From contig OY755241.1 in the NCBI GenBank assembly GCA_963576725.1, forward strand, positions 1,612,001 through 1,676,000: a DNA stretch of 64,000 bases. The letters are read 5' to 3'. The stretch is from Azorinus chamasolen. Lineage: Eukaryota > Mollusca > Bivalvia > Cardiida > Solecurtidae. A program made the position numbers and the translations under genes. Of the stretch, positions 5,297 through 59,225 are shown piece after piece (positions within the stretch are counted from its first letter, which is position 1; each line of letters begins with the position of its first letter). The notes beneath the pieces are model-generated. The model was not told the DNA's origin. It searched no databases and saw only the letters and a list, made by a program, of their open reading frames with translations.

Positions 5297-5799
5297 AAGT
5301 ACAAAAATGAGTCATGCAGGAAACACCACATACAGAACAAACACTCGCCCGAACAGCAACACAAGGAAACAGCAAATGTACATAAGTAGAAAAAACAACA
5401 AGAGACGCACAAAGACAAAACAAACATACAATAGGAGGAAGATGGAAGTACCGCCTTGGAACGGTCAGTGACAAAAGTCACTGGGGGGTTAAACCGGTTT
5501 ATGGGCGCCCAACCTCACACTTATTCCATCCCCATCCTAAAAGACAGTGTAAATAAACGTATCCCCTCTCCGACTAATCTACAACAACCGCGACGGCAAA
5601 TACAGTGGTAAAATGCATGTATAACGAAAAAACATTTAAGTGAACATACTGTATGCACCTATCGCTAGTGTACTCAATGATTGAGCTGCAAACAGAGTAA
5701 CTGTAGAAAAGTAATAAAGGGTACGACAAAAATGAAATAGTACAGATATCCGACGTTCTCCTTCCATTTCTGGATTTAAGAGGTCGCCTTCATAGAGTA
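5297..5799 (-). repeat. 3' UTR of PLE family 1, copy 1
   Basis: This segment follows the PLE stop codon on the minus strand. It carries a SECIS-like fold at its start, then AAACCGGTTT, the core CTGACCGTTCCAAGGCGGTA, and an end of the type CATGACTCATTTTTGTAC. The same 3' UTR is found at 55340-55845 (+), 34105-34290 (-) and 9614/15710 (-), so it is a well-bounded element end. Confidence 0.8.
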
Positions 5800-5801
5800 C
5801 T
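5739..5801 (-). promoter_or_regulatory. SECIS-like element, PLE family 1 copy 1
   Basis: Reading the minus strand: AGTAC overlaps the TAG stop, then ATGA (5793-5790), a 12-base strand, an apical loop opening with AAA, the return strand, GA (5750-5749) and closing GTACT. This matches the eukaryotic SECIS core: UGA/GA quartet, helix of about 11 bp, unpaired AA in the apical loop. The helix has two internal mismatches. Read by eye; folding energy was not computed. Confidence 0.7.
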
Positions 5802-7033
5802 AAACCTTTCTTGTTGGCGTACATGCAAAGAGGCCAGCGTGATTGCCAACTGTAAAAGGGTTCACAACCAAACATGCAGTATGTTGTAGTACTACAGGAT
5901 CATATCCCTTTTTAATGAATTGTTTTATACATTTGATGAACAAAGTGCGAAAATGGGTATGTCCAATAATTTTACGAAGTTTGTAAATCACATCACCATA
6001 AAATTCAGGATGTGAAATACCGTGTCGCAGAAGCTCCTTGAGATTACATTTGTACTTGCCAATAAGCGAGAGATTTCGATAGTAAAATTTAGAGAAAGTT
6101 TTTCTTAGTTTATGGTATCTATATCCTTGCTTAATCAGTTTTTCAGTTAAAATGAGATTTCGACTGTTAAAATCGTCAATAGATGAACAAGCTCTAGCAA
6201 AACGAATAAGTTGAGATATATAAACCCCGTAAGATGGAGCACGGGGAACATCTCCGTCAAGATGAGGAAAATTTACAATATTAAAATCAAAATCATCTCT
6301 TTTGTCATATATTTTAGAAGAAATCATTCCATTATTAATTTTAAGGTCTAGATCAAGAAACGCTGCATAATTGTCGGACGGGTTAGCTTTATTCAATTTG
6401 AGTTCTTTAGGATAAATTGTAGGAATCAGAGCATCAAAGAAAGGGTTATCTAAGTTAAAAATATCATCCAAATATCGACAAGTTTCATTGAAGGCTTTTA
6501 TAACATCTTGTGATTGAGGATTCAAACGCAACATGAAATCTCTCTCATAGCAGTACAAAAACAAATCTGCGACAAGTGGTGCACAATTCGTACCCATAGG
6601 AATACCAATTACCTGACGGTATATAGCATTCCCATAACGTACAAATATGTTATCCAAAAGAAAGGTTAGTGCTTCGCAAACTTCTGAGCAAGTCCAATTG
6701 GTGTAATATTTCATTTGGTCGTCAGTAAAGAAAGCTTTTTCAGCATTACATGCCAAGAATGATGTTTTTTCTCGGGCAAATACTTTCTGGATCAAGTAAG
6801 TAAGCTTATCCTTAATTAAAATATGAGGAAGAGTTGTGTACAGAGTAGAAAAATCGTACGTGCTTACAGTGGAAGCAAGATACCTTTTGTTCTTAAGTTT
6901 GTTTAAGACTTCTGAAGAGTTCTTAATAGACCAGAAGAGATTTATTCCAGAATTTTCATAAGTCTTATCACAGTAGAATTTTACATGTTCCTTTACCTTC
7001 GTTAAACAAGAAGTCAAACGTATAGACAATTTA

Positions 7034-7229
7034 GTAGTTGTACATGAACTAGAATTTGCAATGAAACGCGCTTTATATGGTTTTTTATGTAGTTTTGGTA
7101 ACCAATACATTGTAGGAAGTTTATGTTGTGTGTAGTTGTACATGAACTAGAATTTGCAATGAAACGCGCTTTATATGGTTTTTTATGTAGTTTTGGTAAC
7201 CAATACATTGTAGGAAGTTTATGTTGTGT
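7034..7229 (-). repeat. 98-bp tandem duplication inside the PLE RT
   Basis: The 98 bases starting gtagttgtacatgaactaga at 7034 recur immediately at 7132. They encode the region around MYWLPKLHKKPYKARFIAN, so that peptide is specified twice. 98 is not a multiple of three, hence the frameshift. The copy at 51844-52120 lacks the duplication. Confidence 0.9.
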
Positions 7230-7364
7230 AATTTTAATATCGGTTTCAAATTGTTCACACTTTTTGACATGGTCTGAAATTATGGTCTTTTCGTCAGTGG
7301 TAACTGAAATGTATGACTTGGTATTAGTAATTTCCTGCTTCAAGACATCGATATAATGTAATCG

Positions 7365-7367
7365 TCA
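7365..7367 (-). other. In-frame TGA, candidate selenocysteine codon 2
   Basis: Context NNVIII-[TGA]-RLHYIDVLKQEI. The frame stays open on both sides and the surrounding protein is typical for PLEs, where this position is usually a Cys or another ordinary residue. The same TGA is at 51820-51822 in another copy. Confidence 0.65.
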
Positions 7368-7778
7368 AATAATAATCACATTATTCGATGCCTTATCAGC
7401 AGGAACAAAAACGTATTTTGAATGGAAATCCTGTAAACCCTTTTTAAGATGTCTAAAAGAAGTTCTAGGTTTAGGTGGAAGAAGGTGTTTATTAGAGCTG
7501 TAAAAGGAAATGCTTTTATCAATTATATCAAAAATTAGTTTTTTCCAACAAGAAAGAGCATTAGACTCAACATGTTCTCTTCGACACCATTTAATACTAA
7601 AATTTTGTAAAGCCTCCGCAATCTGAACTCGACAAGAGTTAAAATCTATCAAGGATGGTATTCTATATTTGGGACCTTTATTCAAAAGAGATCGTAGACG
7701 TTTATCTTTAATTATCTCAAAATTACCAGTAATCACATGACCAGCCGGAGAATAGCAAAATTTTGAGGTGGCGCAATC

Positions 7779-7781
7779 TCA
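7779..7781 (-). other. In-frame TGA, candidate selenocysteine codon 1 (C-x-C motif)
   Basis: Context NIPDN-[TGA]-DCATSKFCYSP. The TGA takes the first place of the C-x-C motif described between endonuclease and RT in Naiad elements, giving U-D-C. The same TGA in the same context is at 51422-51424. Confidence 0.7.
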
Positions 7782-8732
7782 ATTATCAGGAATATTATCA
7801 TTAATATTAAGGTCGGCCACAATTTTATTATAGTTGAAAATTGTATTTCTGATGGGTTTGTTATATTTGTAGCAGATGATAGGTGGTTCTGTATTTTTAA
7901 AGTATTTAGGAATAGTGTCAATTACATTTTTGTCTCTAAAAATACTTTGGAGGTCAATAAAATCAATACCTTTATTAATAAAAGGAATTTTCAAGAAGAA
8001 TCTTTGGTGTTCAGATAATTTGTCAATGTGCGGTCTGAGAACATGTAGAGTAAAGCTTTGTATCAAACTAGCCGTTCCTATGAGAGGATCTGATCTAAAA
8101 ATAATTTTATCGGCTTGCCCGTCAATTTCTTTTAATGAACATATAGATAAGGAGGAAAGTCTAGAAAGCATGGCATGTTTACCCGAAGTTAGGCGTAAAG
8201 TATGTAGATCAAAAAGAGTCATTTTCAAACGAGATTTTCGTTTAATATTACCATTTTTGCGAATGCCATGTGATCGAGATTTGCGTTTTCTAATAGAAAA
8301 AATATCTATATCTGGTTCTTTTGAAATATTTCCAGTCTGGTAAATATTATCATTCAGTCCTAAAGGAAAAGGTGTTTGCAATTTTTTGATCCAATTTAAT
8401 TCAGATATAAATATAGTTTTCGATTTAAAGCTACTAGTCGCCTCCTTATCATATGTTATATGCTCAACAATTTGTACTAAAACATCTTTAAAAGAATGGC
8501 CAGATTTCCGAAAGTGTTGGTATAAAAAAGTGTTTAGTTTACGATTTCGACACTGATATGCATGCTCACGAAATCGAGTTTTCAAAGCACGTTAGCATCT
8601 GACAAACCATGGCCAGTTCTCATCCAGAACTACTAGAGAAAATAAAATGTCAACCTAAATTTCTGTCTTTTACTACCAGAGCTACATAACATGTCATTTC
8701 TCAAGAGAAAGTCATAGTTTCTACGAACGTAC

Positions 8733-9895: not shown

Positions 9896-10258
9896 GTGCC
9901 ATATTGGACTTTTAAAACCAAATGTGTGAGCCCCAGGCATCAGGATATACAGATGGAGATGAGAAGTGGATTAGTGGAGAAGCGGATTACTTATACAAGG
10001 TGTGATCTTTCTTTTATAGGGCAATTATCGCCCAATTTAAAACCCAGCAACCTATTAGTATCAATATTAAAACAGCTAGGACTGTTAGACTTCGGGCAAT
10101 TTGGCTTAGCTAAATTTAGGGGTTCGAGAGGGGGCAACTCGAAATCAAAGCGTGTTTGGGATGTAAATAAAGGTGTTCATTTAAACAAATTAAGGGAAAT
10201 ACCCCAATCAATTCCAATTGTTTCTGGATCAAAAGGGAAATTCCATTTGCTGGCGTAA
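9896..10258 (+). CDS. 5' open frame of the L2-like LINE, function unknown
   Basis: 120 codons, basic, with a glycine/arginine/lysine-rich stretch (FRGSRGGNSKSKRV) before its end. It precedes the endonuclease frame and is out of frame with it. Many L2/CR1 elements have a basic segment just before the endonuclease, so this may be the degraded N-terminus of the polyprotein. I recognise no ORF1 domain. Confidence 0.4.
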   Translation: MPYWTFKTKCVSPRHQDIQMEMRSGLVEKRITYTRCDLSFIGQLSPNLKPSNLLVSILKQLGLLDFGQFGLAKFRGSRGGNSKSKRVWDVNKGVHLNKLREIPQSIPIVSGSKGKFHLLA

Positions 10259-10269
10259 ATTTCTATCAC

Positions 10270-13200
10270 TTGAAAGAGTTACCCCAGATAATCCGACCCA
10301 CTGTTTCAAAACCTCACAGAAACACTGGTAAATTCTCAGCAGTGCCCTTTTCCAGGGAAACGGACAATCTTGTACTTGTAAAACGCGAACCTCCGACGCC
10401 AGCCAGAATTCAGACTTTTGTGAAAGTATGCAGCATAAATCCTAGATCAGTCAAAAACAAGGCTCTTTCTATTTGCGACTATATTGTTTCAAATGACTTA
10501 GATGTGGTAGCCGTTACAGAAACCTGGCTCGGTAGTTCTGTAGACAAATCATGCCTAAGTGAACTAGTTCCCACCAATTACAAAATTGAACATGTCCCTC
10601 GCTGCAATGGCAACCGTGGCGGCGGGGTGGCAGTCATACATAAGACTTCAATAGGACTTCGCCTCCATTCGTCGACAAGAGATGGCGATTTCTCAAACTT
10701 TGAGTACATGGACTGCACCGTTAGTATCCGAGATTTCACTCTACGCCTAGTAGTCGTTTACAGACCACCGCCATCGCGGGGAAATGGCCTTAAAACCGGA
10801 GATTTTCTTGATAATGAATGGCCACTTTTCCTATCTGAATTTGTGACTTGTGACAGACCAGTCATCATTGTAGGGGACTTAAACATCCACATTGACAATC
10901 AAAATGACAGGAACACAGTTAACTTTGTTAGTACACTAGTCATTTGGATTGCAACAGCATGTGGATGAAGCCACTCATGTAGGTGGACATACCCTTGATG
11001 TTATTATCACGAGAAACGGTGATGACTGTGTGTCAAATATTGAGGTCGCCGATCCAGGACTATCTGACTGCACTGGTAAAGTTTTGCGCGATCATTTTTC
11101 CGTAACTTTCGAAGCAAAGGCGGCTAAACCTCCAACAGTGAGAAAAACTGTTTTATTTCGGAAACTTAGGGCAATTAATGTTGACTCATTTAAAAGAGAT
11201 CTCATCAACTCTGAACCCATCAAAGTAAGTTTGCAAATGACAGATGTTGATGAGCTGGTTAACACATATACACAAGCGCTGGCGGCACTTGCCGATAAAC
11301 ATGCCCCATTGTGTACTAAAACCATAACGCTCAGACCATCATGTCCGTGGTATACCCAGGAACTGCACGATGCTAAACATGCACGGCGCAAGTTGGAAAG
11401 AAATTGGAAAAAATCCAGACTCGCAATAGACCATCAGCTATACAGAGAACAGTGTGCCAACGTAAACAAGCTGTTGACAAAGGCAAAGGTTGATTTCTAC
11501 TCAGAAAAAGTAGAATCTTGCCAGGCAGACTCAAAGAGTCTTTTCAAAGTTACTAAGCACCTGCTAGGCACAACTAGTGACATCAAATTGCCTAAGACTT
11601 CGTCCTCAAGACAACTTGCACAAGACTTCAGTGACTTTTTTGTCAACAAAGTGGACAAAATTCGGGCAGATATTGCATCAGACACTGTATCGAGTGCACC
11701 AGTTATTACGGAAATGCAGCATGCAACGAACGCTTTTGATAGTTTTGTTACAGCTACAGAAGAAGAAGTAGAACAGATCATTAAGGCACCCCCTTGCAAG
11801 TCCTGTGAACTGGATCCTATACCTACATGGCTGTTAAAGTCATGCCTTGGTGAACTCCTACCGATTCTGAGCTCCTCTTTAGACACGGCCTACGTTCCAA
11901 AAAACTTCAAGATGTCACATGTCAGACCTATTTTGAAGAAACCGAATCTGGATTCAAACGAACTTAGGAATTATAGGCCGGTTTCGAATTTGCCATTTGT
12001 CTCCAAAGTGTTAGAAAAAGTGGTCGACAAGCGCATTGAGTCCCACTTGACCTCAAACGGACTACATGAGCATCATCAGTCGGCATACCGAAAGCATCAT
12101 TCAACGGAGACTGCTCTCCTGAAAGTTCAGAACGACATCCTTCAATCCCTAGATGGAAACGAAATAACAGTTCTGGTCATGCTTGACTTCTCGGCTGCAT
12201 TTGACACTATCGATCATGAAACTCTGCTAAAACGCCTGGAAAAAAGACTTCAGAATTATTGGAAAACCTCTTGAGTGGATAACCTCCTACCTGAATGACC
12301 GCTATCAAATAGTCTCAGTAGATGGAGAACTGTCCACCCCAGTTAAAATGGAATATAGCGTGCCACAGGGTTCCGTCCTAGGACCAAAACACTACATCAT
12401 GTACACGAAACCTGTCGGCTCAATCTGCAGAAACCATGGGCTTAATCACCATTTCTATGCCGATGACTCACAGTTATACCTGTCCTTTAAGCCCAAGGGC
12501 ATATCCTGTCAACTGGAAGCTTTATCGCGAGTTGAGGACTGTCTCAAAGAAGTAGTCTCTTGGATGCATCAGAACATGCTGAAGCTCAATACTGACAAGA
12601 CTGAGGTCATTCTGTTTCATACAAAAAACACAGAAGTACCTGCAGAGGTTAGTGTGCAAGTAGGACCCTCTAAAATCAGGCCATCTTTGTGTATAAAGAA
12701 TCTCGGTGCATGGCTCGATTCACAAATGGATATGACATCACATGTCAATTCCGTGTGTAGGTCTAGTTATGCACAGCTCCGACAAATAGGCCATATTAGA
12801 AAGTACCTCTCACCTGATGCTACCAAGACTTTGGTAAACTCTCTTGTTACATCGAAAATAGACTACTGCAATTCACTGTTGCATGGGATTTCAAACAACT
12901 CACTGCGGAAATTTCAAAGAGTGCAAAACACAGCAGCCCGCATCATAACAAGAACTTCTCGATATAATCATATCACGCCGGTTTTGAAGGAACTTCACTG
13001 GCTTCCGGTTCAACATCGGATTGAATTCAAAATTCTGACTCTTACGTATAAAGCCATGCACAATGAATCTCCCAAATACATTGTCGACATGCTTGACGTA
13101 TACAGGCCGCGCAGAGAGTTAAGGTCAGCAAGCAGATCATTGTCGTTGGTTGTGCCAAAAAGTCGTAAGGTAAAATACAGTGAGAGAAGTTTCATGCATG

Positions 13201-13307
13201 CAGCTCCGAAACTTTGGAATGCTCTACCTTCAGGCATTAGAGACGCAAGGTCACTGGCATGTTTCAAAAGGTGTCTGAAAACGCACTTTTTCAACATTTG
13301 TTACTAG
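10270..13307 (+). pseudogene. L2/CR1-like LINE endonuclease-reverse transcriptase, two frameshifts
   Basis: The AP endonuclease domain shows VCSINPRSVKNKA, VVAVTETWL, RGGGVAVIH, VVYRPP, IIVGDLNIH and DHFSVTF. The RT shows NYRPVSNLPFVSKVLEKVV, HQSAYRKHHSTETALLKV, MLDFSAAFDTIDH, SVPQGSVLGP and HFYADDSQLYL. There is no RNase H. The C-terminus has TLVTSKIDYCNSLL-type and LHWLPVQHRIEFKI motifs. Frameshifts near 10935 and near 12250 each look like a single-base change, because the protein resumes in sense in the next frame. It is otherwise well preserved, so the insertion is fairly recent. Confidence 0.85.
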
Positions 13308-22950: not shown

Positions 22951-24381
22951 GTGGACTGCGCTGATATAACAGTTCAAACACCTGAAAAAGATATAGTCTC
23001 GGAACATGTAAAAATGTGCAATGATTTTAAGTCTGGTCCTAACATAAAACAACATAAACTTTCTACTTTGTACTGGATTCCGAAACTACATAAAAACCCT
23101 TATAAGTCGCGTTTTATTGCCAACTCTAGCTGTTGTACCACTACTAAATTATCTATACTTTTGACGTCCTGTCTTACTACGATCAAAGAACATGTTAAAC
23201 GCTACTGTGATAAAATATATGAAAATTCTGGTATTAATGTTTTTTGGTCCATAAAAAATTCAAATGATGTTTTAACAAAACTTGAAAATGAACAGTATAA
23301 CATTTCTTTACTGAGCTCTTATGATTTCTCTACACTCTATACTACTCTACCTCACCATCTTATAAAGGATAGACTTATTAAATTAATAGAAAAAACCTTT
23401 GCCAGAGAAAACAAAATGTTCATTGCTTGTAATGTTCAACGTTCATTCTTTTCGAATTCAGAAGTTGAACATTACACAATGTGGACTTGCCTTGATGTTT
23501 GTAGATCTCTTACCTTTCTTTTAGATAATATATTTGTGCGTTATGGAGATACCATATATCGTCAAGTTGTTGGTATACCCATGGGTACAAATTGTGCCCC
23601 TCTTGTTGCAGATTTGTTTTTGTATTGCTACGAGAGGGATTTTATGCTTAGCTTAAAACCTGATACACAGACCGATATTGTTAATGCTTTTAATAAAACT
23701 TCAAGGTATTTAGACGATATTTTGAATTTAGATAATCCTTATTTTGATACTATGGTTTCTTCAATCTACCCAAAAGAACTGTCTTTAAACAAAGCTAATC
23801 AATCTGACATTAATGCTTCATTTCTAGATTTGAATCTTTCAATTACAAATGATAGAGTTTCGTCCAAAGTATATGATAAAAGAGAAGATTTTAATTTTAA
23901 AATTGTTAATTATCCTTTTCTAGATGGGGATGTGCCACGTTCTACATCTTATGGTGTTTATATTTCTCAACTTATTAGGTTTGCCCGAGCCTGTTCTTTG
24001 CTTGAAGATTTTAACAGACGTAATTTAGTTATAACTGATAAACTTCTTAAGCAAGGTTACAGATATCACAAACTTCGGAAAACCTTTTCTAAATTTTATT
24101 ATCGAAATTTACCTCTCATTAGTAAATATAATTGCAATCTACGGACGTTACTGCGACAAGGCATTTCTCAACCAGAATTTTATGGGGATGTTATCTACAA
24201 ACTTAGGAAAATTCGGGGTCATATCCATTTTCATGATTTGTTTATAAAACGCATTAAAAAATTTAAAAAGAAAGGTTATGATCCTATTATATTGCAACAC
24301 ACTGCATGTTTGGTTATCGACCCTTTTACAGTCGGTAGTTACGCTTCCCTCTTTGCTTGCGCGATGACAGGCCGAGGGTAG
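22951..24381 (+). CDS. Reverse transcriptase of a second Naiad-type PLE family, 5'-truncated but open
   Basis: 476 codons without interruption. RT motifs: KLSTLYWIPKLHKNPYKSRF, YDFSTLYTTLPH (motif A), VVGIPMGTNCAPLVADLFLY, SRYLDDILNLDNPYF (catalytic DD), FLDLNLS, then YGVYISQLIRFARAC and GYRYHKLRKTFSKFYYR. It aligns along its length with the family 1 RT but is clearly diverged. The N-terminal endonuclease and C-x-C linker are missing: homology begins just before 22960. The frame starts at GTG, so this is a truncated insertion and not a complete gene. It ends in TAG, on which a SECIS-like fold begins. Confidence 0.88.
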   Translation: MDCADITVQTPEKDIVSEHVKMCNDFKSGPNIKQHKLSTLYWIPKLHKNPYKSRFIANSSCCTTTKLSILLTSCLTTIKEHVKRYCDKIYENSGINVFWSIKNSNDVLTKLENEQYNISLLSSYDFSTLYTTLPHHLIKDRLIKLIEKTFARENKMFIACNVQRSFFSNSEVEHYTMWTCLDVCRSLTFLLDNIFVRYGDTIYRQVVGIPMGTNCAPLVADLFLYCYERDFMLSLKPDTQTDIVNAFNKTSRYLDDILNLDNPYFDTMVSSIYPKELSLNKANQSDINASFLDLNLSITNDRVSSKVYDKREDFNFKIVNYPFLDGDVPRSTSYGVYISQLIRFARACSLLEDFNRRNLVITDKLLKQGYRYHKLRKTFSKFYYRNLPLISKYNCNLRTLLRQGISQPEFYGDVIYKLRKIRGHIHFHDLFIKRIKKFKKKGYDPIILQHTACLVIDPFTVGSYASLFACAMTGRG

Positions 24382-24442
24382 TACTCTATGATGGTATACT
24401 CTTAAACTTGGATACAGGAGGAGCTTACCAGACTCATGTATT
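24380..24442 (+). promoter_or_regulatory. SECIS-like element, PLE family 2
   Basis: AGTAC (24380-24384) pairs with GTATT (24438-24442). ATGA is at 24388-24391 and GA at 24431-24432. Between them TGGTATACTCTT pairs with AGGAGCTTACCA, with two mismatches in the middle. The apical loop opens AAAC. All SECIS hallmarks are present. Compared with family 1 the helix differs by compensatory changes at the fourth and fifth positions (T-A to C-G, A-T to G-C). Confidence 0.75.
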
Positions 24443-24982
24443 ATTTTTTCCCGGTCGTGCCCTTAACGGCTTACCTGCAGGTGCTCTGACTTCAGCAAAG
24501 TCATTGAGTACATATTTGACGGATTGTCACAGTTATTATGCTATGTTTTACATGTTGTCCTGTGTTCACCGTCGTCTATGTTGTGGGTAAGTCCAGCGGG
24601 GATACCTTTATTTACAATATTTGTAAAGCTAGGGTGACTTTGAGAGAAGTGTGAGGTTAGGACGTCCGTAAACCGGTTTAAACCCCCAGTGGTGTTTTTG
24701 CTGCTGACCGTGCCAAGGCGGTACTCTCTTTGTCACCCTTCCTTTTGTTTGCATTGCGTCTTTGTGCTTGTGGTTTGTTCATGTTGTGGAACGTTTGTCC
24801 CTGGTTCTTGTGTGTCTTTTGGTGTTTTCTGTGTTCATTTCGTGTGTGTGTGTGTGCGTGTGCGTTTGGGTGTGTGGTTGTGTGTGTGTGTGTGTGTGTG
24901 TGTCATGCTGTCTATCGGTGTTTTGGTGGTGGTTGCGTTTTGCATGTGGCTTTGCCTGCTTGACTTTACTACTTTTCCATTT
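24443..24982 (+). repeat. 3' UTR of PLE family 2
   Basis: It contains gtgaggttaggacgtccgta, AAACCGGTTTAAACCCCCAG, CTGACCGTGCCAAGGCGGTA, an imperfect (GT)n tract (24841-24903) and the end TTTACTACTTTTCCATTTA. Partial copies occur at 15853 (-), 50881, 52273-52842 and 56458-56780. Confidence 0.8.
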
Positions 24983-30479: not shown

Positions 30480-32578
30480 CTGATTGGGTGTAGGGTATGT
30501 ACTCTGGTGGGGTGAAGGGTAGGTACTCTGGTTGGGTGCAGGGCTCGACAGTAACGGTAGTCCGACTGCCCGGGACAATCAAAATTTAGGTCCGGACAAT
30601 AAAAACCTGTATCTAGCAGTCCGACGTGGCAAGTAGATCTCAAACCAATTTTCTGTAAAGTCTTATCATCAATAGTTCGGTATTAAACATGAAAATCGTT
30701 TACCGGTGAAATGGATTTTGCCGAAACGTCAAACAGCCCCAGTTTGTTTACAAGGAAGTACCGAGATAACCTATCGCGCATGCGTGAGACTATTCAGCAC
30801 ACCTCCTCCGTTATCGGCTAGAATAGCTTTGTAGACTGGTAATAGTACATCGTAATAAGGTAAAGCATGCTGCGAATAAAAAAGTTGGAACCAGTCGAGT
30901 TTTTCTGCTTCTTGTTTCCGGTAATTATTTGCATACATGTACGACATTTCACAGATATAAGTTCCGATTTTTTAACACAGCAAGGTTAGTTATCTACACC
31001 CATATTTATGCCCGTAAACATTTTTGACTCAATGGATTAGAATTAGAAGTTTATTGAACTAAGTTTCAAAGTAAAAGTTAACGACATCGTCAATCGACTA
31101 GTGTTTGTTTACCTTATTCACGGTTGAATGGCACGTGATTTGTAATGTCGCTTTCCAAGTTTTGGATTTACGGGTTCGAAAAAGGACAGTACCGAGTCTA
31201 CTGACAGTAGCAATAAGCCCAATTAAAGGAAGAGATGCTACTTAAAAGGAGTATAAAAAAGAGAAAACGTATATTTATTCCCAAGTGGCTGGAAGAGTAT
31301 GACTGGCTTGTTTTAATACAAAGAGTCTAAAGAGGTGATGTTTTGTGAACCGTGTCAGAAATATGCAAAATTAAGCGGCTCCAGCTTTGTAACAGGTTGT
31401 AGTTCTTTCCGAAGACAGTCAGATTTTTGAGTTGATACAGTCATATTAAGAAATGGAAGTTTTTTGTTTGTAAACAGAGCTCCAGATAAAAGAGGTATTT
31501 AAAAAAACTAAAAATTCTGTCTCTGGATTAAACCCTATGGTGTCATTACTCATAAGGATAGGCTCTTAGAGACACTTCTGAGTAGTAACTTCATAGGACT
31601 TTATGCTGAAATGTGTGAGAAAATGTGGAAATTGTGTGGCGTACTCTTTTTCTCTCTCTTATCCAGAGCCCTGTTTACAGCCCATGAATTGAGTCTGTCT
31701 GTTGAAACTTAAAAGGGTTAAGTCCCTGCGGGTGTAGGGTGGGTACTGGTGGGGTGTAGGGTAGGTACTCAGGTTGGGTGTAGGGTAGGTACTCTGGTTA
31801 GATGTAGGGTTGGTACTGGTGGGTTGTAGGGTAGGTACTCTGGTGGGGTGTAGGGTAGGTACTCTGATGGGGTGTAGGGTAGGTACTCTGGTTAGATGTA
31901 GGGTTGGTACTGGTGGGTTGTAGGGTACGTACTCTGGTTAGATGTAGGGTTGGTACTGGTGGGTTGTAGGGTAGGTACTCTGGTGGGTTGTAGGGTAGGT
32001 ACTCTGGTTAGATGTAGGGTTGGTACTGGTGGGATGTAGGGTAGGTACTGGTTGGGTGTAGGGTAAGTACTGGTGGGTGTAGGGTAAGTACCCTGGTTGG
32101 GTGTAGGGTAGGTACTGGTTGGGTGTAGGGTAGGTACTGGTGGGTGTAGGGTAAGTACCCTGGTTGGGTATAGGGTAGGTACTGGTGGGGTGTAGGGTAG
32201 GTATTCGTGGGTGTAGGGTAAGTACCCTGGTTGGGTATAGGGTAGGTACTGGTGGGGTGTAGGGTAGGTATTCGTGGGTGTAGGGTAAGTACCCTGGTTG
32301 GGTATAGGGTAGGTACTGGTGGGGTGTAGGGTAGATATTCGTGGGTGTAGGGTAAGTACCCTGGTTGGGTATAGGGTAGGTATTCGTGGGTGTAGGGTAG
32401 GTACCCTGGTTGGGTATAGGGTAGGTACTGGTGGGGTGTAGGGTAAGTACCCTGGTTGGGTATAGGGTAGGTACTGGTGGGGTGTAGGGTAGGTACTCAG
32501 GTGGGGTGTAGGGTAGGTACTGGTTGGGTGTAGGGTAGGTACTGGTTGGGTGTAGGGTAGGTACTGGTTGGGTGTAGA
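30480..32578. repeat. G-rich minisatellite (unit about 22-25 bp), split by a 1.2-kb insert
   Basis: Units of the form GGTTGGGTGTAGGGTAGGTACT, with CT and GG variants, fill 31727-32578. Two or three units also lie at 30480-30540. The 30545-31725 interval between them has no such units and starts CAGGGCTCGACAGTAAC; GAGCCCTG occurs at 31666. The regular GGG runs every few bases make G-quadruplex formation plausible. Confidence 0.8.
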
Positions 32579-32579
32579 T

Positions 32580-34104
32580 TAAATATAGTAACGCGTTTCA
32601 TTATGATCTAAACTCTAGAAACGTTTTAAAGGAAACTGGAGAAAATGTAGTAACAAAACACAGACATATTTGCTGTCGACAATTTCAACCAGTCATATTC
32701 GTCTTTTCGTTTGTTGTATGCCTGACAAGAGCAGTTTGATTGGGGTCTACGCTAGTTGCTATTATGTCAGTCTAATTCAAGTTATCAATGCAGTCAACTT
32801 GACATATAATTTTCCCCATAGAGAGGGAAGTATTTAGGGTAGGTATTCGTATTACCAGTTGAATGCTTGTTTTGAAATACGTATCAATTTACCTATTGCA
32901 TGCAAAGTAAATGTCGTCTGAAAAACTGTCGCCTTCTAGCCTGTACTTATCAAAATTCGTTTTCTTCCATATTTCTTTAAATAGAAACAAACAAATGTCA
33001 AAAGGTTGCCACAGATGGATCCAAATTGCATTAATTCATTGTCTACGTGCGAATGCTTGATAAATGACCTTGAGTTTGGCCGAATGAATGCTTATGTACT
33101 TGAGTTTGAATGTGTGATTTTCTGTACTTACAATTAATCCTGTACTCCATATAAACGCCTCTGCAAACAGAGTAGACCCAGATCGGATGGCCCCTATAGG
33201 GACTGTCTGATCAGGAACTGCTCTATGTGGTTATGAAATAAAATCGATACATGTAATGACTAGTTTCTGCCTTGGCCAAAATTCCATTCATTCATATGCC
33301 ATTATAAAAACGAATCTAATAAATATACACGACGTCGCTATTTCTACTCTTTCCCTGTTCTTTGTTCATGTAAGAAATTCTGAATATTTATTAATGTCAT
33401 AGACGTAGATCTAAACCTATTGTTTTGGTGGAAGAAGCCGTCTGGTTTCATGTTAGGTCTACACTGTTTGAAAAGGCGTGAGAAAAAAATGTGTATGAAA
33501 GAAATTATGAATTGTTGCTGGCAAGAATGTGCAATAAATTCAGCTATGTGAGTTAGGGTTCGTAGAAAATAGCCGAGGTGTTCAGAATGGCAAGGGGATA
33601 TATCTCCCGTGATACCTACTGTGTGTTTCACCCAGCTCTGTCAATCGATTTCAATCGAGATTTTTTTTTATTCCATATTTTTCTGTTTTTAAACTTACCT
33701 CAATCAATGTATTTATTTTTTATGTAGTCAGATCCTGAATAAAAGTTTGATCCCTGCTAATCTGACGTGACAATCAGCAAAAAATCATTTTTCACCTTGT
33801 AGCATTAGTCATTTTGACAGTTAAAATGGACGCCGATAGACGTAATTTTTCTGGAATAGTCCATGTGTAAATAATGTAGGGAGATCTAGTGTTCAAACAA
33901 GTAATTGGTTTAGGCTAGTGGCCTAGTAGTGGGTATGTTGCTTAAAACTTTCAAACACTGTCATTGCATTCTATACACGGTGCATTAAATTTTATTCTGT
34001 TTTATTGAAATAAATAAATAAAATGTTCAGCATGTTTCAACTAAACTTTCAGTATGACGTAATTTTACACCCAATAATGACGGTAAATTTTACGTCATGT
34101 TTTC
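32580..34104. other. Non-coding region with MITE hairpins
   Basis: Hairpin arms of the MITE group are at 33169-33232 (CAAACAGAGTAGACCCAGAT; GTCTGATCAGGAACTGCTC) and near 33350-33515 (ATATTCATG-type neighbourhood as at 29843). No gene is recognised. Confidence 0.4.
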
Positions 34105-45708: not shown

Positions 45709-46900
45709 AAGAGGGCCAAGATGGCCCTTCATCGCTCACCTGATTACCATAGATTTAAGATTTTTGCAGGGTAGCCCATGGGTAGGGTCAATATTGAACT
45801 TAGGGACAATATATGAACAATGTTGATAGTGGATCATGAGCAGTGGATTATGAGCAGTGGTTCTGCAGAACAAGATTTTCAAAGATTTAGTATATTGATT
45901 TTATCAAGACAATGATTCTGACCAAAGAAGATTGGGCTAAAAATGTGCTCTCTAAAGTATTTTTCTAAGATTTAACCTAGTGACCTACTTTCTATTCCCA
46001 CCCTACCCATGATCACACTCAACCTTGATATCACCAAGACAAACAGTCTGAGCAAGTTTGAGGAAGACTGGGCTAAAAATGTGGCCACTGGAGTGTAAAC
46101 TAGATATGACCCAGTGACCTACTTTTTGACCTCACATAACCTACTTTCAAACTTGTCCAAGCTTTTATAAGGACAATCATTCTGACCAATTTTCATGAAG
46201 ATTTGGCTATAAATGTGACCTCTAGGGTGTTGACAAGGTTTTTGCTACTATTTGACCTAGTGACCTAGTTTTTAAACCCACATAACCCACTTCCAAACTC
46301 TTTTGAGATTTTATCAAGACAATCATTACGACTAAGTTTCATGAAGATTGGACTAAAATTGTGACCACTAGAGTGTTCACAAGGTTTTTCTACTGTTTGA
46401 CCTAGTGACCTAGTTTTTAACTCCACTTGACCCACTTTCGAACTTGTCCGAGACTTTATCAAGACATTCGTTCTGACCACGTTTCATGAAGATTGGACTA
46501 AAATTGTGACTACTAGAGTGTTCACAAGGTTTTTCTACTGTTTGACCTAGTGACCTAGTTTTTTACCCCACATAACCCACTTTTCAAACTCCTCCGAGAT
46601 TTTATCAAGACAATCATTCTGACCAAGTTTCATGAAAATTGGGCTAAAAATGTGACCTGTAGAGGGTTCACAAGGTTTTCCTACTATTTGACCTAGTGAC
46701 CTAGTTTTTAACCCAACTTGACCCACTTTCGAACTCGTCCGAGATTTTATCAAGACATTCATTCTGACCAAGTTTCATGAAGATTAGACTACAATTGTGA
46801 CCACTAGAGTGTTCACAAGCAAATTGTTGACGACGCACGACGCACGACGGACATTCAAGTCTCCCAAAAGCTCACCCTGAGCTTTGCTCAGGTGAGCTAA
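45709..46900. mobile_element. Hairpin-ended tandem-repeat element inside the Tx1-type LINE
   Basis: It begins aagagggccaagatggccct, TCATCGCTCACCTGATTACC and ends GCTTTGCTCAGGTGAGCTAAAA. Removing it joins ...ISYGSYT to KKQTRSREMELINK, an in-frame continuation expected for this LINE, so the boundaries are good to a few bases. The left part is near-identical to the copy at 53914. Confidence 0.85.
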
Positions 46901-49719
46901 AAAAGAAGCAAACAAGATCAAGAGAAATGGAATTAATCAATAAAATTCGTGAATTAGAACAAAATTTAACTGAAGAAAAATTAGAAGAACATTCACTTTT
47001 AACCAATGAATTCAACACAATTAACGATGAAAAAACGATGGGGTCAGTCATAAGGTCGAGAGTTAAATGGAGTGTAGAAGGAGAAAAACCAACAAAATAT
47101 TTTTGTGGATTAGAGAAATCCAATAACATATCAAAGACAATTCAAAAAATTATAAGAGAGGATGGGTCGGAAATTATTAATCAATCAGATATTTTAGCTG
47201 AAACAAAACATTTTTACGAAACTTTATACAAAGCAAAAGAGGAAACAGTAACAAATGACCAATTAAATGTCTTTTTTGAAAATGAAAATATACCTAGATT
47301 AAATGATAAAGATTCAAAAAGTGTGGAAGGTGAAATCACTCTGGACGAAGCAACTAATACTTTGAAAAATATGAAAAATAATCGTAGTCCGGGAACTTCC
47401 GGATTCAGTGCAGATTTTTATAAGGTATTTTGGACTAAGATAGGTTGTTTTGTTGTCAGAGCTCTTAATGAAGCATTTAGTATGAACGCTTTGGCAACCA
47501 CTCAGACTCAAGGTTTAATTACATGTATTCCAAAAGGAAATAAATCAAAATGTTTTCTTAAAAACTGGCGTCCCATCACATTACTTAATACTGTTTATAA
47601 AATTGGGACTGGGTGTATTGCAAACAGACTCAAGTCGTTGTTACCAAACATAATACATACTGACCAAACTGGTTTCCTTAAAGGACGATTCATTGGGGAA
47701 AATACTAGACTTATATATGATATACTTCATTATACCGAAGAAAACAACATACCTGGGATTTTACTTTTAATAGATTTTGAAAAAGCTTTTGATTCCCTTT
47801 CGTGGTCATTTGTAAATAAAAGTCTGAAACATTTTAACTTCGGCCATGATATGCAAAGATGGTTTAATATTTTCTATAAAGACGCAACCTCTACTGTAAC
47901 TCAGTGTGGATTCCTCTCTGACTTTTTCAACGTCCATAGGGGCTGTAGACAAGGTGATCCTTTGAGTTGTTATATCTTCATTTTATGTGCAGAGATCTTA
48001 TCTATTCATTTAAGATCAAATCCTAAAATTCGAGGCATTACCATTAATGGTACAGAATATAAATTGTCACAATTTGCAGACGACACCAGCGTGATCTTAG
48101 ACGGATCTAGTGAATCGTTGAATGAAACTTTGAACGCACTTTCAAATTTCTCTTCAATATCCGGCTTAAAAGTTAATTTTGATAAAACAAAGGTGGTCTG
48201 GATAGGCAAGAAGAAATATAGCTCAGATACAATAAAAACTAAATGGAAACTAACATGGAATCATCAACAGTTTAGTATGCTAGGCATAGACTTTCATGTC
48301 GACCTGTCTAAAATGATTGACTTGAATTATAAATCTAAAATTGCAGAGATAGAAGATACAATTAAAAAGTGGAGCAGACGAATTCTTTCTCCCATAGGAA
48401 AAATTACAGTTGTCAAAACTTTAATAATTGCAAAGCTAAATCATTTATTTCTTTCATTACCCAACCCGTCTGATGAAATTTTGAAGAAACTAGAAAATAC
48501 CTTATTCCATTTTATCTGGAATGGCCCTCACAAGATTAAGAAAGAAATAGTTATCAAAGACTATATAGAAGGCGGTCTTAGAATGCTCAATATCAAAGCT
48601 TTTATAGATTCTTTAAAGATCACCTGGATAAGAAGATTAGTAAATTGTGAAAGTAGATGGTCAACAATTGCCAAGAAATATGTAGATATAGAAAGACTAA
48701 TGAATTGTGGTAAACATTATCCTGAACTATTGTCATTTACATGCAGTAATAAATTCTGGGCACATGTTTTCGAAGCATTTGCAAAGTTAATGTGTACTCA
48801 GTGTATGGGAAAAGAAAGTATAGTCAACTACCCCATTTTCTATAATCACATGCTTTTGATTAGGTCACAGAGTGTTTTCCTAAAATCGTGGTTTAGTGCT
48901 GGTCTATACTGTATTGGTGATTTGCTTAACGAGAACAACTCAATTATAGGGTTAGAACAGTTGAGAGTAAAATACAATCTTAAAACTGACTTTTTGACTT
49001 ATAATGGTGTTATATGTGCATTAAAAGCAACAGCAAGAAAATTGGATATAAATTTAAAAGAAGCCGAACTTTTCCGGAAACCCTATAAACCGCCTTATAT
49101 TGATATCATTATTAAAGACAGTAAAGGTGCCAAACGAATTTATGAAGCTTTGAATAGAAACAAAATTGAGCCAAAATGTATATACACGTGGAATAATAAA
49201 TTAACAGCACATATATCGGATAAAAAATGGAAAAACATATTTTTGCTACCATTCAAAATTACTACCGATACAAAAATACAATGGTTTCAAGTACGAGTCA
49301 TTCATAGACTTTTAGGAGTAAATTCATACCTCATTAAAATGAATTACACGGACGATCCACTTTGTACCTTTTGTAAAAGTAATCAAGAAACGATTGAACA
49401 TCTGTTTTGGTACTGCCCAATTACCCTAAAGCTGATACAAAATATGTTCGATCTATCCCATTTCAGGGATTTAAGTTTGGAAATTATGCTATTTGGATAC
49501 TCAAATACTTTACATATAGCTAATGATCTGGTTCTCATATTCTTTAAAATGTATATTTTCCAATGCAGAAACTTGAAATTTCTTCCTACTGAGCAAGGTG
49601 CAAAGAAATACATATCTTTTAAATACAATCTACTTAGACAGACCGCCATACAAAATAACAAGGAATATATGTTTGAAAAAACATGGCAAAATACCATGCA
49701 CATTTTACAAAAATCTTAA
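46901..49719 (+). CDS. Tx1/L1-type LINE reverse transcriptase and C-terminal domain
   Basis: 930 uninterrupted codons from the first Met at 46927. RT landmarks: NWRPITLLNTVYKIGTGCIA, DQTGFLKGRFIGENTRLIYD, LLLIDFEKAFDSLSWSFV, HRGCRQGDPLSCYIFILCAE, SQFADDTSVIL and ISGLKVNFDKTKVVWIG. A zinc-binding CTFCKSNQETIEHLFWYCP sits near the C-terminus as in zf-RVT domains. The frame is really the 3' part of an ORF2 whose N-terminus is at 44746. The RT itself looks intact, so the copy is young. Confidence 0.92.
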
Positions 49720-50880: not shown

Positions 50881-51085
50881 GCTTACCAGACTTAACAGGA
50901 TGAGCTTACCAGACTCATGTATTACTTTTTCCCTGTCGTGCCCTTAACGGCTTACCTGCAGGTGCTCTGACTTCAGGAAAGTCATTGAGTACATATTTGA
51001 CGGATTGTCACAGTTATTATGCTATGTTTTACATGTTGTCCTGTGTTCACCGTCGTCTAAGTTGTGGGTAAGTCCAGCGGGGATA
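50881..51085 (+). repeat. PLE family 2 3' UTR fragment
   Basis: gagcttaccagactcatgta through GGTAAGTCCAGCGGGGATACC matches 24421-24605. It starts within the SECIS 3' strand, so it lacks a complete SECIS, and it abuts the family 1 copy without spacer, as in tandem PLE arrangements. Confidence 0.75.
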
Positions 51086-51421
51086 CCTTATCTATATGTT
51101 CATTAAAAGAAATATCCCCTCATAGGAACGGATAGTTTGATACAAAGCTTTACTCTACATGTTCTCAGACCGCACATTGTGAAATTATCTGCACACCAAA
51201 GATTCTTTTTGAAAATTCCTTTTATTAATAAAGGTATTGATTTTATTGACCTCCAAAGTATTTTTAGAGACAAAAATGTAATTGACACTATTCCTAAATA
51301 CTTTAAAAATACAGAACCACCCATCATCTGCTACAAATATAACAAACCCATCAGAAATACAATTTTCAACTATAATAAAATTGTGGCCGACCTTAATATT
51401 ACTGATAATATTCCTGATAAT

Positions 51422-51424
51422 TGA
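51422..51424 (+). other. In-frame TGA, candidate selenocysteine codon (C-x-C motif)
   Basis: NIPDN-[TGA]-DCATS, identical in context to 7781-7779 on the other strand. Confidence 0.65.
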
Positions 51425-51819
51425 GATTGCGCCACCTCAATATTTTCCTATTCTCCGGCTGGTCATGTGATTACTGGTAATTTTGAGATAATTAAAGATA
51501 AACGTCTACGATCTCTTTTGAATAAAGGTCCCAAATATAGAATACCATCCTTGATAGATTTTAACTCTTGTCGAGTTCAGATTGCGGAGGCTTTACAAAA
51601 TTTTAGTATCAAATGGTGTCGAAGAGAACATGTTGAGTTTAATGCTCTTTCTTGTTGGATATAATTGATAAACGCATTTCCTTTTACAGCTCTAATAAAC
51701 TCCTTCTTCCACCTAAACCGAGAACTTCTTTTAGACATCTTAAAAAGGGTTTACAGGATTTCCATTCAAAATACGTTTTTGTTCCTGCTGATAAGGCATC
51801 AAATAATGTGATTATTATT

Positions 51820-51822
51820 TGA
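51820..51822 (+). other. In-frame TGA, candidate selenocysteine codon 2
   Basis: NNVIII-[TGA]-RLHYIDVLKQ, as at 7367-7365. A 16-bp deletion upstream puts it out of frame with the first TGA in this copy only. Confidence 0.6.
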
Positions 51823-52128
51823 CGATTACATTATATCGATGTCTTGAAGCAGGTAATTATTAATACCAAGTCATACATTTCAGTTACCACTGACGAAAAG
51901 ACCATTTCAGACCATGTCAAAAAGTGTGAACAATTTGGAACCGATATTAAAATTACACAACATAAACTTCCTACAATGTATTGGTTACCAAAACTACATA
52001 AAAAACCATATAAAGCGCGTTTCATTGCAAATTCTAGTTCATGTACAACTACTAAATTGTCTATACTTTTGACTTCTTGTTTAACGAAGGTAAAGGAACA
52101 TGTAAAATTCTACTGTGATAAGACTTGT

Positions 52129-52842
52129 TTGTTTATAAAACGCATTAAAACATTTAAAAAGAAAGGTTATGATCCTATTATATTGCAACGCACTGCATGT
52201 TTGGTTATCGACCCTTTTGCAGTCGGTAGCTACGCTTTCCTCTTTGCTTGCGCGATGACAGGCCGAGGGTAGTACTCTATGATGGTATACTCTTAAACCT
52301 GGATACAGGATGAGCTTACCAGACTCATGTATTACTTTTTCCCTGTCGTGCCCTTAACGGCTTACCTGCAGGTGCTCTGACTTCAGCAAAGTCATTGAGT
52401 ACATATTTGACGGATTGTCAGTTATTATGCTATGTTTTACATGTTGTCCTGTGTTCACCGTCGTCTATGTTGTGGGTAAGTCCAGCGGGGATACCTTTAT
52501 TTACACTATTTGTAAAGCTAGGGTGACTTTGAGAGAAGTGTGAGGTTAGGACGTCCGTAAACCGGTTTAAACCCCCAGTGGTGTTTTTGCTACTGACCGT
52601 GCCAAGGCGGTACTCTCTTTGTCACCCTTCCTTTTGTTTGCCTTGCGTCTTTGTGCTTGTGATTTGTTCATGTGTGGAACGTTTGTCCCTGGTTCTTGTG
52701 TGTCTTTTGGTGTTTTCTGTGTTCATTTCGTGTGTGTGTGCGTTTGGGTGTGTGGTTGTGTGTGTGTGTGTCATGCTGTCTATCGGTGTTGGTTGCGTCT
52801 TGCATGTGGCTTTGCCTGCTTGACTTTACTACTTTTCCATTT
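52129..52842 (+). mobile_element. 5'-truncated PLE family 2 insertion inside the family 1 copy
   Basis: It starts within the last 50 codons of the RT (FIKRIKTFKKKGYDPIILQR), includes the stop, the SECIS-like fold (52271-52333) and the whole 3' UTR, and ends TTTACTACTTTTCCATTTA. On removal, AAGACT-TATGAAAATTCTGG is restored as in the other family 1 copy. Target duplication is at most two or three bases. Confidence 0.85.
52271..52333 (+). promoter_or_regulatory. SECIS-like element in the family 2 insertion
   Basis: AGTAC...GTATT closing helix, ATGA at 52279, GA at 52322, AAACC loop. Two changes from 24380-24442: one in the loop and one near the top of the helix. Confidence 0.65.
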
Positions 52843-53913
52843 ATGAAAATTCTGGAATAAATCTCTTCTGGTCTATTAAGAACTCTTCAGAAGTCTTAAA
52901 CAAACTTAAGAACAAAAGGTATCTTGCATCCACTGTAAGCACGTACGATTTTTCTACTCTGTACACAACTCTTCCTCATATTTTAATTAAGGATAAGCTT
53001 ACTAACTTGATCCAGAAAGTATTTGCCCGGGGAAAAACATCATTCTTGGCATGTAATGCTGAAAAAGCTTTCTTTACTGACGAGCAAATGAAATATTACA
53101 CCAATTGGACTTGCTCAGAAGTTTGCGAAGCACTAACTTTTCTTTTGGATAACATATTTGTACGTTATGGGAATGCTATATACCGTCAGGTAATTGGTAT
53201 TCCTATGGGTACGAATTGTGCACCACTTGTCGCAGATTTGTTTTTGTACTGCTATGAGAGAGATTTGATGTTGAGTTTGAATCCTCAATCACAAGATGTT
53301 ATAAAAGCCTTCAATGAAACTTGCCGATATTTGGATGATATTTTTAACTTAGATAACCCTTTCTTCGATGCTCTGATTCCTACAATTTATCCTAAAGAAC
53401 TCAAATTGAATAAAGCTAACCCGTCCGACAATTATGCAGCGTTTCTTGACCTAGACCTTAAAATTAATAATGGAATTTCTTCTAAAATATATGACAAAAG
53501 AGATGATTTTGATTTTAATATTGTAAATTTTCCTCATCTTGACGGGGATGTTCCCCGTGCTCCATCTTACGGGGTTTATATATCTCAACTTATTCGTTTT
53601 GCTAGAGCTTGTTCATCTATTTTAACAGTCGAAATCTCATTTTAACTGAAAAACTGCTTAAGCAAGGATATAGATACCATAAACTAAGAAAAACTTTCTC
53701 TAAATTTTACTATCGAAATCTCTCGCTTATTGGCAAGTACAAATGTAATCTCAAGGTGCTTCTGCGACACGGTATTTCACATCCTGAATTTTATGGTGAT
53801 GTGATTTACAAACTTCGTAAAATTATTGGACATACCCATTTTCTCACTTTGTTCAAATATATAAAACAATTCATTAATTTTCTCACTTTGTTCAAATATA
53901 TAAAACAATTCAT

Positions 53914-55227: not shown

Positions 55228-55337
55228 AAAGGGATATGATCCTGTAGTACTACAACATACTGCACGTTTGGTTGTGAACCCTTTTACAGTTGGCAATCAC
55301 GCTGGCCTCTTTGCATATACGCCGACAAGAAAGGTTT

Positions 55338-55845
55338 AGTACTCTATGAAGGCGACCTCTTAAATCCAGAAATGGAAGGAGAACGTCGGATATCTGTACT
55401 TTCATTTTTGTCGTACCCTTTATTACTTTTCTACAGTTACTCTGTTTGCAGCTCAATCATTGAGTACACTAGCGATAGGTGGATACAGTATGTTCACTTA
55501 AATGTTTTTTTTGTTATACATGCACTTTACCACTGTATTTGCTGTCGCGGTTGTTGTAGATTAGTCGGAGAGGGGATACGTTTATTTACACTGTCTTTTA
55601 GGATGGGGATGGAATAAGCGTGAGGTTGGGCGCCCATAAACCGGTTTAACCCCCCGGTGACTTTTGTCACTGACCGTTCCAAGGCGGTACTTCCATCTTC
55701 CTCCTATTGTATGTTTGTTTTGTCTTTGTGCGTCTCTTGTTGTTTTTTCTATTTATGTACATTTGCTGTTTCCTTGTGTTGCTGTTCGGGCGAGTGTTTG
55801 TTCTGTATGTGGTGTTTCCTGCATGACTCATTTTTGTACTTTTAA
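55338..55845 (+). repeat. 3' UTR of PLE family 1 with SECIS-like element (55338-55400)
   Basis: ATGA at 55346-55349 and GA at 55389-55390 flank a helix with an AAATCC-starting loop, closed by AGTAC and GTACT. The rest matches 5297-5799 base for base over most of its length and ends CATTTTTGTACTTTTAAC where RNase H LINE sequence resumes. Confidence 0.75.
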
Positions 55846-58465: not shown

Positions 58466-59225
58466 ATTATCAAAACCCTGTTCACATGTAGCAGCCCTAC
58501 TCTTCAAGATTGAAGCAGCAGTCAGATTAGAGCTACTCCGAAGGTTTTCGCTGGGAAAAAAACAAGTGACGGTTAAATTGCCATTACTCCTTTCAAATCT
58601 ATATCAAAAAGAGCACGAATGAATATATGGAACAATTAGAAAAAAAGTCTGCAAACAAGAACTGGACATGCTAACATTAACCAATAGTGAAATTGAATTC
58701 ATTGCAAAAAGTACGACGGGTCAATCAACCAATATACACTGGCTGGAACAAAGAATAACTTCATCAACAGTCCATTCAGTTCTTCATACAGGCATAAACA
58801 GTCCAGCTAGGGCAATAGTAGATACTATCTGCTATCTTCGGAAGAGGCCATTGCAAGTTCCAGCGGAAAGTGGAGAGTTGAACAAGAGGCAATAGCTTTG
58901 AAGGCATACAAACAGTTTGTGGCATGCGCTAATCTACCTCACAGCAATGTCACTTGATGTTGAGTAAAGATCTGTCTTTCCTTGGATGTAGCGCAGACTG
59001 CATTATGACATGTGATTGTCATGGAAAAAGCTAATAGAAGTTAAAGATAATACAAGACATTCTCGGCGAAAGACAAGGATTTTACTTGATTTGCCAACAT
59101 CCCAGGTTCAGATGCAGATGTTTATCTATGGTGTGGAAGCTGCAGATTTTGTTGTCTGGGTATCTAAATTTCTAGTCATTATGTATGTAAAGCGAGGCGA
59201 TGAATTCATTTATGAAATGAAAGAG
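58466..59225 (+). pseudogene. SWIM zinc finger / YqaJ-type exonuclease-like gene remnant
   Basis: After a good acceptor (tttttcttatttcag at 58465) comes LSKPCSHVAALLFKIEAAVR, like the SWIM-type C-x-H segment found next to YqaJ viral recombinase domains in mollusc proteins. Then EIEFIAKSTTGQSTNIHWLE-QRITSSTVHSVLHTG (RITAS-like YqaJ motif) and, one frame over, KWRVEQEAIALKAYKQFV. Further on come QVQMQMFIYGVEAADFVVWV and DEFIYEMKE. Frameshifts and stops separate all the blocks, so it is decayed. It may be host or transposon-borne. It ends at a LINE tail. Confidence 0.65.

Follow-up and report, generated by a model that had tools for sequence, protein, structure and literature searches.

The window analysed here, a 64-kb stretch of DNA from the bivalve Azorinus chamasolen, holds copies of two retrotransposon families, A and B, whose reverse transcriptase (RT) frames end at a hairpin of SECIS shape. 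In family A, a 5'-truncated RT frame (22957-24381, forward strand; an open reading frame with a predicted fold nearest to telomerase RT) terminates at a UAG (24379-24381) that, judged from sequence, frame and fold, is paired in helix I of a type II SECIS (24379-24445, forward; fold z -2.53). The AUGA (24388-24391) and the GA (24431-24432) of the core quartet are placed by the sequence and the Rfam alignment, and between them the apical UAAA supplies a second in-frame stop, UAA (24403-24405), so that the frame past the first stop reads stop-YSMMVYS-stop, seven codons and then the UAA, an arrangement shared with family B and with a third family, C, described below. Sequence, fold, Rfam and our model R1 together place three further SECIS copies: a family A tail in a chimeric copy (52270-52336, forward; TAG at 52270-52272), a family B copy (5736-5802, reverse; TAG at 5800-5802) and a family B 3' fragment (55337-55403, forward; TAG at 55337-55339). 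The family B copy carries an RT open reading frame that ends at its SECIS (5800-7146, reverse) and, upstream, the end of a GIY-YIG region and a linker with two in-frame UGAs (7230-8591, reverse; from open reading frames and relatives). A perfect 98-bp tandem duplication (7034-7229, reverse) breaks this RT frame. Sequence comparison also identifies a partial family A 3' end with only the 3' half of the SECIS (50895-51089, forward); it opens a nested chimeric pile of Naiad pieces (50895-53877) that runs from this 3' end through a family B front and the family A tail with its SECIS to a family B RT. Elsewhere, the window contains a repeat with three long overlapping frames that encode YPTPNQYLPY-like units (31892-32607, reverse) and other retrotransposon-like frames at 46831-49719 (forward, 962 aa) and 10171-13307 (forward; 265, 444 and 358 aa).

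The first-pass annotation had proposed a SECIS element starting on the stop codon at four places, and the sequence it described is found at all four (24380-24442, 5801-5739, 55338-55400 and 52271-52333). A SECIS-shaped hairpin starts at the stop each time, and the matches of the Rfam model SECIS_1 coincide exactly with these intervals, scoring 23.2 bits at 24380-24442 (forward), 24.0 at 52271-52333 (forward) and 26.0 at both 5739-5801 (reverse) and 55338-55400 (forward). None of the four reaches the curated gathering score of 35, and the Rfam E-values, at best 0.94, cover 4227 families jointly and are smaller by that factor for SECIS_1 alone. Beyond the four stop-abutting intervals, SECIS_1 gave no match on either strand of the 64 kb at E ≤ 10. 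Folded alone, every window copy takes up the SECIS fold (z -2.4 to -3.1), and a fixed SECIS descriptor matches five places, these four and an ATGA at 59200, compared with a mean of 0.25 and a maximum of 2 in 60 first-order Markov simulations. Within each family the two copies share about 97% of their sequence, so the window alone offers two independent observations rather than four. The fifth descriptor match (59200, forward) is a SECIS-like hairpin that model R1 does not find, and it is probably due to chance. Other Rfam matches (snoU105B, ceN44, CyVA-1, SECIS_5, miRNAs and others) lay far under their own cutoffs and were set aside.

Structure and covariation of the hairpin

The stop forms the outer part of helix I on the 5' side, its bases 24379-24381 pairing with 24441-24443, and the outermost of the helix I pairs forms in three of the four window copies. 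The AUGA starts seven bases past the stop, and the core comprises the AUGA/GA quartet at the base of helix II and the apical AAA. What had been described as an AAA-starting loop does start with AAA, but it is not a plain loop: it holds a hairpin of four base pairs, with three more two-sided changes between families A and B. A four-pair hairpin within an AAA-starting loop is the mark of a type II SECIS; here it folds in all four window copies and is weaker in family C. The changes reported at helix II positions 4 and 5 (T-A to C-G and A-T to G-C) are real, the two internal mismatches of helix II do stay in place between the families, and pairing of the helix is kept overall, with the exception of its first pair, which is broken in family B. 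Across the whole hairpin 19 of 20 pairs are kept between A and B (11 unchanged, three with one-sided and five with two-sided changes, three of these five in the apical hairpin) and one is broken. When the same substitutions were placed at random in paired positions (100,000 trials), 19 pairs were kept with P 0.002 and at least five two-sided changes arose with P 0.012, in a comparison that covers two families. Identity between A and B is 39/63 in the SECIS interval, below the coding flank (44/66) and at about the level of the 3' flank (22/37), which suggests that pairing rather than the letters has been conserved.

Copies from the rest of the genome (1.72 Gb, 137 contigs) widen this comparison. 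Of 40 family A places, 28 were aligned (8 as loci and 20 fetched). Model R1 at E<0.001 marks 30 places in 200 kb around family A copies; these 20 stretches of 10 kb were picked for holding family A and have a SECIS density that cannot stand for the genome as a whole. One of the 30 places, L031:8215, led to family C, which is represented here by 21 rows (20 copies fetched from 40 places, and the L031 copy). Model R1, built without family C, matches all 20 fetched copies. The SECIS_1 cutoff is passed by 14 of the 20, with 35.3 to 43.4 bits; five score between 30 and 35 and one has no listed SECIS_1 match, while the L031 copy scores 19.1 bits. Among 11 additional copies whose tails are of A or B type, none passes the cutoff. 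The AUGA is intact in 21/21 family C rows, and the apical A run is altered in some. Five C-type copies were folded alone, and the SECIS shape is clearly the minimum in L060 only (z -1.94); it was not clear in L057 (-1.48), L059 (-0.59), L067 (+0.49) or L031:8215 (-0.36).

For covariation we used 29 distinct rows of families A, B and C, an alignment that was fitted to the model and whose rows are related, so the figures lean towards structure. Pairing cells make up 87.9% against 81.2% in shuffled alignments, cells with two-sided changes number 57 against a shuffled mean of 23.4, and the covariation score is 0.339 against 0.213; each value was reached by 0 of 500 shuffles. Structures slid along the same alignment give 44 to 55% pairing. 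Counted by pair, two-sided changes affect 10 of the 20 pairs, a number that 47 of 500 shuffles reach, and in two other shuffle tests the number was reached by 213/500 and 30/500. Further pair types do not exceed the shuffles in any of the three tests (22 in the 29 rows, reached by 495/500). The first pairs of helix II and of the apical hairpin are unpaired in 19 and 15 of the 29 rows, respectively. The proposal that pairing has been kept by compensatory change is supported, now with three families instead of two. The first-pass annotation had also named two absences that would speak against it, of a SECIS match at standard thresholds and of covariation: families A and B do fall below the cutoff and most fetched C copies lie above it, and the covariation score of the 29 rows was reached by no shuffle.

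Element identity and in-frame UGA codons

The RT was modelled by AlphaFold2 with pLDDT 81.5 and pTM 0.67. Compared with PDB structures, its 14 best matches by E-value are all telomerases, with modest TM scores by query length (0.35-0.43); a search of the PDB by sequence returned no match. In L081, a long family B copy, PF01541 (GIY-YIG) matches residues 111-204 of the N-terminal 350 residues with 25.2 bits (cutoff 22.6; UGA read as Cys in this search), and the same frame continues into the RT. Pfam searches gave no GIY-YIG match in the whole 999-residue L081 frame, in the relatives P0201 and P0222 or in six pieces without the whole domain. The linker motif reads UDC in the window, and the 121 listed relatives described below have Cys, Trp or a stop at its first position and mostly Cys at the second. 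A CxC motif in the linker is a hallmark of Naiad elements, as are an insertion-in-fingers domain, pseudo-LTRs and microsatellite targeting. The telomerase-like RT, the N-terminal GIY-YIG and the linker [C/U]xC together place the element in the Naiad group of Penelope-like elements. Relatives also occur in assemblies of the clam symbionts Thiodiazotropha, which points to a bivalve as the probable host. Two scans of viral contigs for relatives confirmed 0 of 29 and 0 of 21 pattern matches, and genome contigs yielded one degenerate relative, L001, from a Bathymodiolus symbiont assembly, without a SECIS match.

A finding absent from the first-pass annotation is that conserved in-frame UGAs, the partner that a SECIS calls for, lie upstream in the SECIS-bearing frames. 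Comparison with 121 relatives of the upstream half (120 among the matches listed, of 482 in total, plus P0079) defines two of them in the family B copy of the window, one in the linker (7779-7781, reverse; PDN-U-DCAT) and one before the RT (7365-7367, reverse; VIII-U-RLHY). At the linker site these 121 listed relatives have Cys in 72, Trp in 20 and another residue in 5, and 24 frames end within one residue of it. For the site before the RT, the counts are 71 frames ending no more than one residue away, 16 with Trp, one with Cys and 33 uninformative. Altogether 95 of the 121 listed frames end no more than one residue from one of the two UGA sites; the protein entries are silent on the stop that ends them, which, going by the copies whose DNA was seen, is presumably UGA. 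Cys at the site before the RT exists in P0001, P0099, P0111 and others, and Sec is therefore not universal there. Trp stands at both sites in 16 of the 121 listed relatives, and P0201 and P0222 have it at both endonuclease sites, a pattern suggestive of UGA translated under a code in which TGA is W.

L081 is open for 1032 codons up to its TAG save for three UGAs, which lie 2748, 1884 and 1470 nt before that TAG. Family A copies in L030 have four UGA sites: the endonuclease region holds two, and the linker and the stretch before the RT hold one each. The first endonuclease site is UGA (Sec) in the family A copy of L030 and Cys in the family B copy L081; read from the codons, this is a Sec/Cys exchange inside one genome.

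Two stop positions and protein ends

The two in-frame stops of the hairpin have counterparts in the ends of related proteins. We compared 131 RT relatives (120 among the matches listed, of 5069 in total, and 11 new ones from a second protein search): the first site is the end of 50 and the second of 34, and the other 47 stop elsewhere or are truncated. In each of the 34 second-site relatives the AUG of AUGA reads as Met, and the next residue is M (29), T (3), I (1) or N (1), always one whose codon begins with A; M, T, I, N and K jointly make up 30% of residues in the relative proteins. The 34 are non-independent and represent 14 distinct tails. By this reading, relatives known as proteins only would also end in a SECIS loop. 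Eight others (P0056, P0058, P0062, P0068, P0070, P0072, P0085 and P0092) end four codons past the first stop site with '..QPHGTP'-like ends, and in every case the last residue permits a codon with A in third place, so the UGA within AUGA may itself serve as the stop.

Within the genome, all 28 aligned family A loci, the window copy among them, have TAG at the first-stop site. A whole-genome search scored 95 places out of a loosely counted 43,259 first-look candidates, and the aligned stretch contains one TAG in 93 of these places, none in one and two in one. From the 95 we retrieved eleven 3' ends and a single upstream stretch; the stop position is inferred for the other 84. Ten of the eleven fetched ends have TAG on the SECIS site; the eleventh, L075, has TAT, and its frame extends to the SECIS loop stop. 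With TAT beside TAG copies, one substitution switches between the two ends, and the codons seen indicate that single substitutions do so. The 47 rows of alignments A5 and A6 add one ATG and one CAG at the first-stop position. In the 21 family C rows the first-stop codon is TAA in 17, AAA in 3 and TGA in 1, and the apical codon is TAA in 17, GAA in 2, TTA in 1 and CAA in 1. The three C copies with AAA are L059, L062 and L031:8215. AAA pairs better than TAA with the 3' arm GUAUUU, and the read-through form may accordingly be the older state. Many of the copies seen are truncated, frameshifted or decayed.

Interpretation and comparison with known SECIS elements

We are confident, with some reserve, that the hairpin is a type II SECIS with a built-in terminator, belonging to Naiad-type Penelope-like retrotransposons that encode selenoproteins, and that the host reads the UGAs as Sec. 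The sequence, the predicted structure, the covariation, the UGA sites and both stop positions are directly observed in the DNA of this genome. The UGAs would then be decoded as Sec, and the SECIS is predicted to bind its protein and direct Sec insertion: the host SECIS-binding protein, eEFSec and Sec-tRNA would insert selenocysteine at the three or four UGAs of the endonuclease-linker-RT frame. In the predicted structure, the 5' strand of helix I is the first stop (UAG in families A and B, UAA in most copies of C), and the apical UAAA supplies the second, UAA; where the first stop is missing, as in some copies and relatives, the last eight RT codons would be the 5' half of the SECIS.

Set against an element in the 3' UTR, this SECIS starts on the stop and, in copies that lack the first stop, part of it is in frame. 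A ribosome with a stop in its A site has its leading edge about a dozen bases further on. This edge covers the AUGA, so each terminating ribosome should open the SECIS, which could then act only between ribosomes. We speculate that the SECIS is a dual-coding terminator that is always melted by the terminating ribosome, such that termination would be coupled to Sec decoding by the next ribosome and act as a limiter, though we hold this stronger proposal only tentatively and think the odds are somewhat against it. Under it, the 5' half would be read as protein in many Naiad lineages with the apical UAAA as stop, and the stop in helix I would be an earlier alternative, gained and lost via single substitutions.

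It is also possible that this is an ordinary SECIS brought close to the stop by a compact 3' UTR, the overlap and the loop stop being without consequence, and we give this an even chance. The apical A run is needed anyway, chance alone would put a UAA there in frame in a third of cases, and the first-stop codon is not invariant (AAA 3 and TGA 1 of 21 in family C, TAT in 1 of 11, ATG and CAG once each in 47). But the first stop keeps one position across three diverged families and 50 of the 131 listed relatives, and the next commonest protein end, in 34 of them, is exactly the loop stop. Those 34 proteins have a well-conserved tail, of SDSMM type, which might be kept for protein function with the RNA structure secondary. 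We think this improbable: the TACTCTATGA nucleotides are identical in A, B and C although a stop precedes them, and the residue that follows Met differs among the 34 tails, yet its codon always begins with A.

Two other explanations would dispense with selenocysteine. The hairpin could be a SECIS look-alike of another kind, such as a 3' structure recognised by the RT of the retrotransposon. RT-binding structures are expected at the 3' ends of retrotransposons, which is where the hairpin is located, and families A and B are under the SECIS_1 cutoff; against this stand the exact SECIS core (AUGA...GA, apical AAA and type II hairpin), the 14 of 20 fetched C copies above the cutoff and the UGAs at Cys positions in the same frames, and we regard such a structure as slightly less probable still than a tail kept for its protein function. 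Least probable of all, to the point of being hardly credible, is that the in-frame UGAs are decay mutations of dead copies with no selenoprotein produced. Many copies are indeed truncated or frameshifted, and the family B copy of the window is broken by its 98-bp duplication, but the UGAs occupy the same sites in A and B, the frames of 95 of the 121 listed relatives end within one residue of two of these sites, and L081 is open throughout its 1032 codons save for three UGAs.

The preferred reading, a Naiad SECIS with a built-in terminator, belongs to a retroelement already known as a selenoprotein gene. Naiad elements of clams and spiders reportedly encode selenoproteins (Craig, Yushenova, Rodriguez and Arkhipova, Mol Biol Evol, 2021). 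By that account, the elements share with ours the N-terminal GIY-YIG endonuclease, the linker [C/U]xC, the telomerase-like RT, several Sec codons, many copies and an animal host; what the feature set here places beside it is a SECIS on the stop codon and an alternative stop in the SECIS loop. A narrow literature search, which is weak evidence, found no account of a SECIS that starts on the stop with an alternative stop in its loop.

SECIS and terminator are here one object in a genomic retrotransposon, in three families of one genome and at many places. If working, the hairpin would set a natural lower limit for the distance between stop and SECIS, supply many natural variants on which SECIS rules could be tested and allow a direct test of the terminating ribosome's effect on a SECIS. 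Sec at Cys sites of the endonuclease and linker also raises the question of why a retrotransposon would depend on selenium. With Rfam SECIS_1 (RF00031) the hairpin shares the AUGA/GA quartet, the apical AAA and the additional apical hairpin, and in copies of families A, B and C the match spans model positions 1-64; it differs in that A and B score below the cutoff and the match begins on a stop codon. In PMC8310308, eukaryotic SECIS elements are described as elements of the 3' UTR, with a poxvirus gene as the exception: the SECIS of fowlpox virus GPx4 lies in coding sequence (Mix et al. 2007, as described in PMC8310308 and PMC7409322). The fowlpox element is like the one described here in that the SECIS overlaps translated sequence, but it belongs to a viral gene that is called exceptional relative to cellular counterparts with a SECIS in the 3' UTR, whereas here the carrier is a genomic retrotransposon and the terminator lies inside the SECIS.
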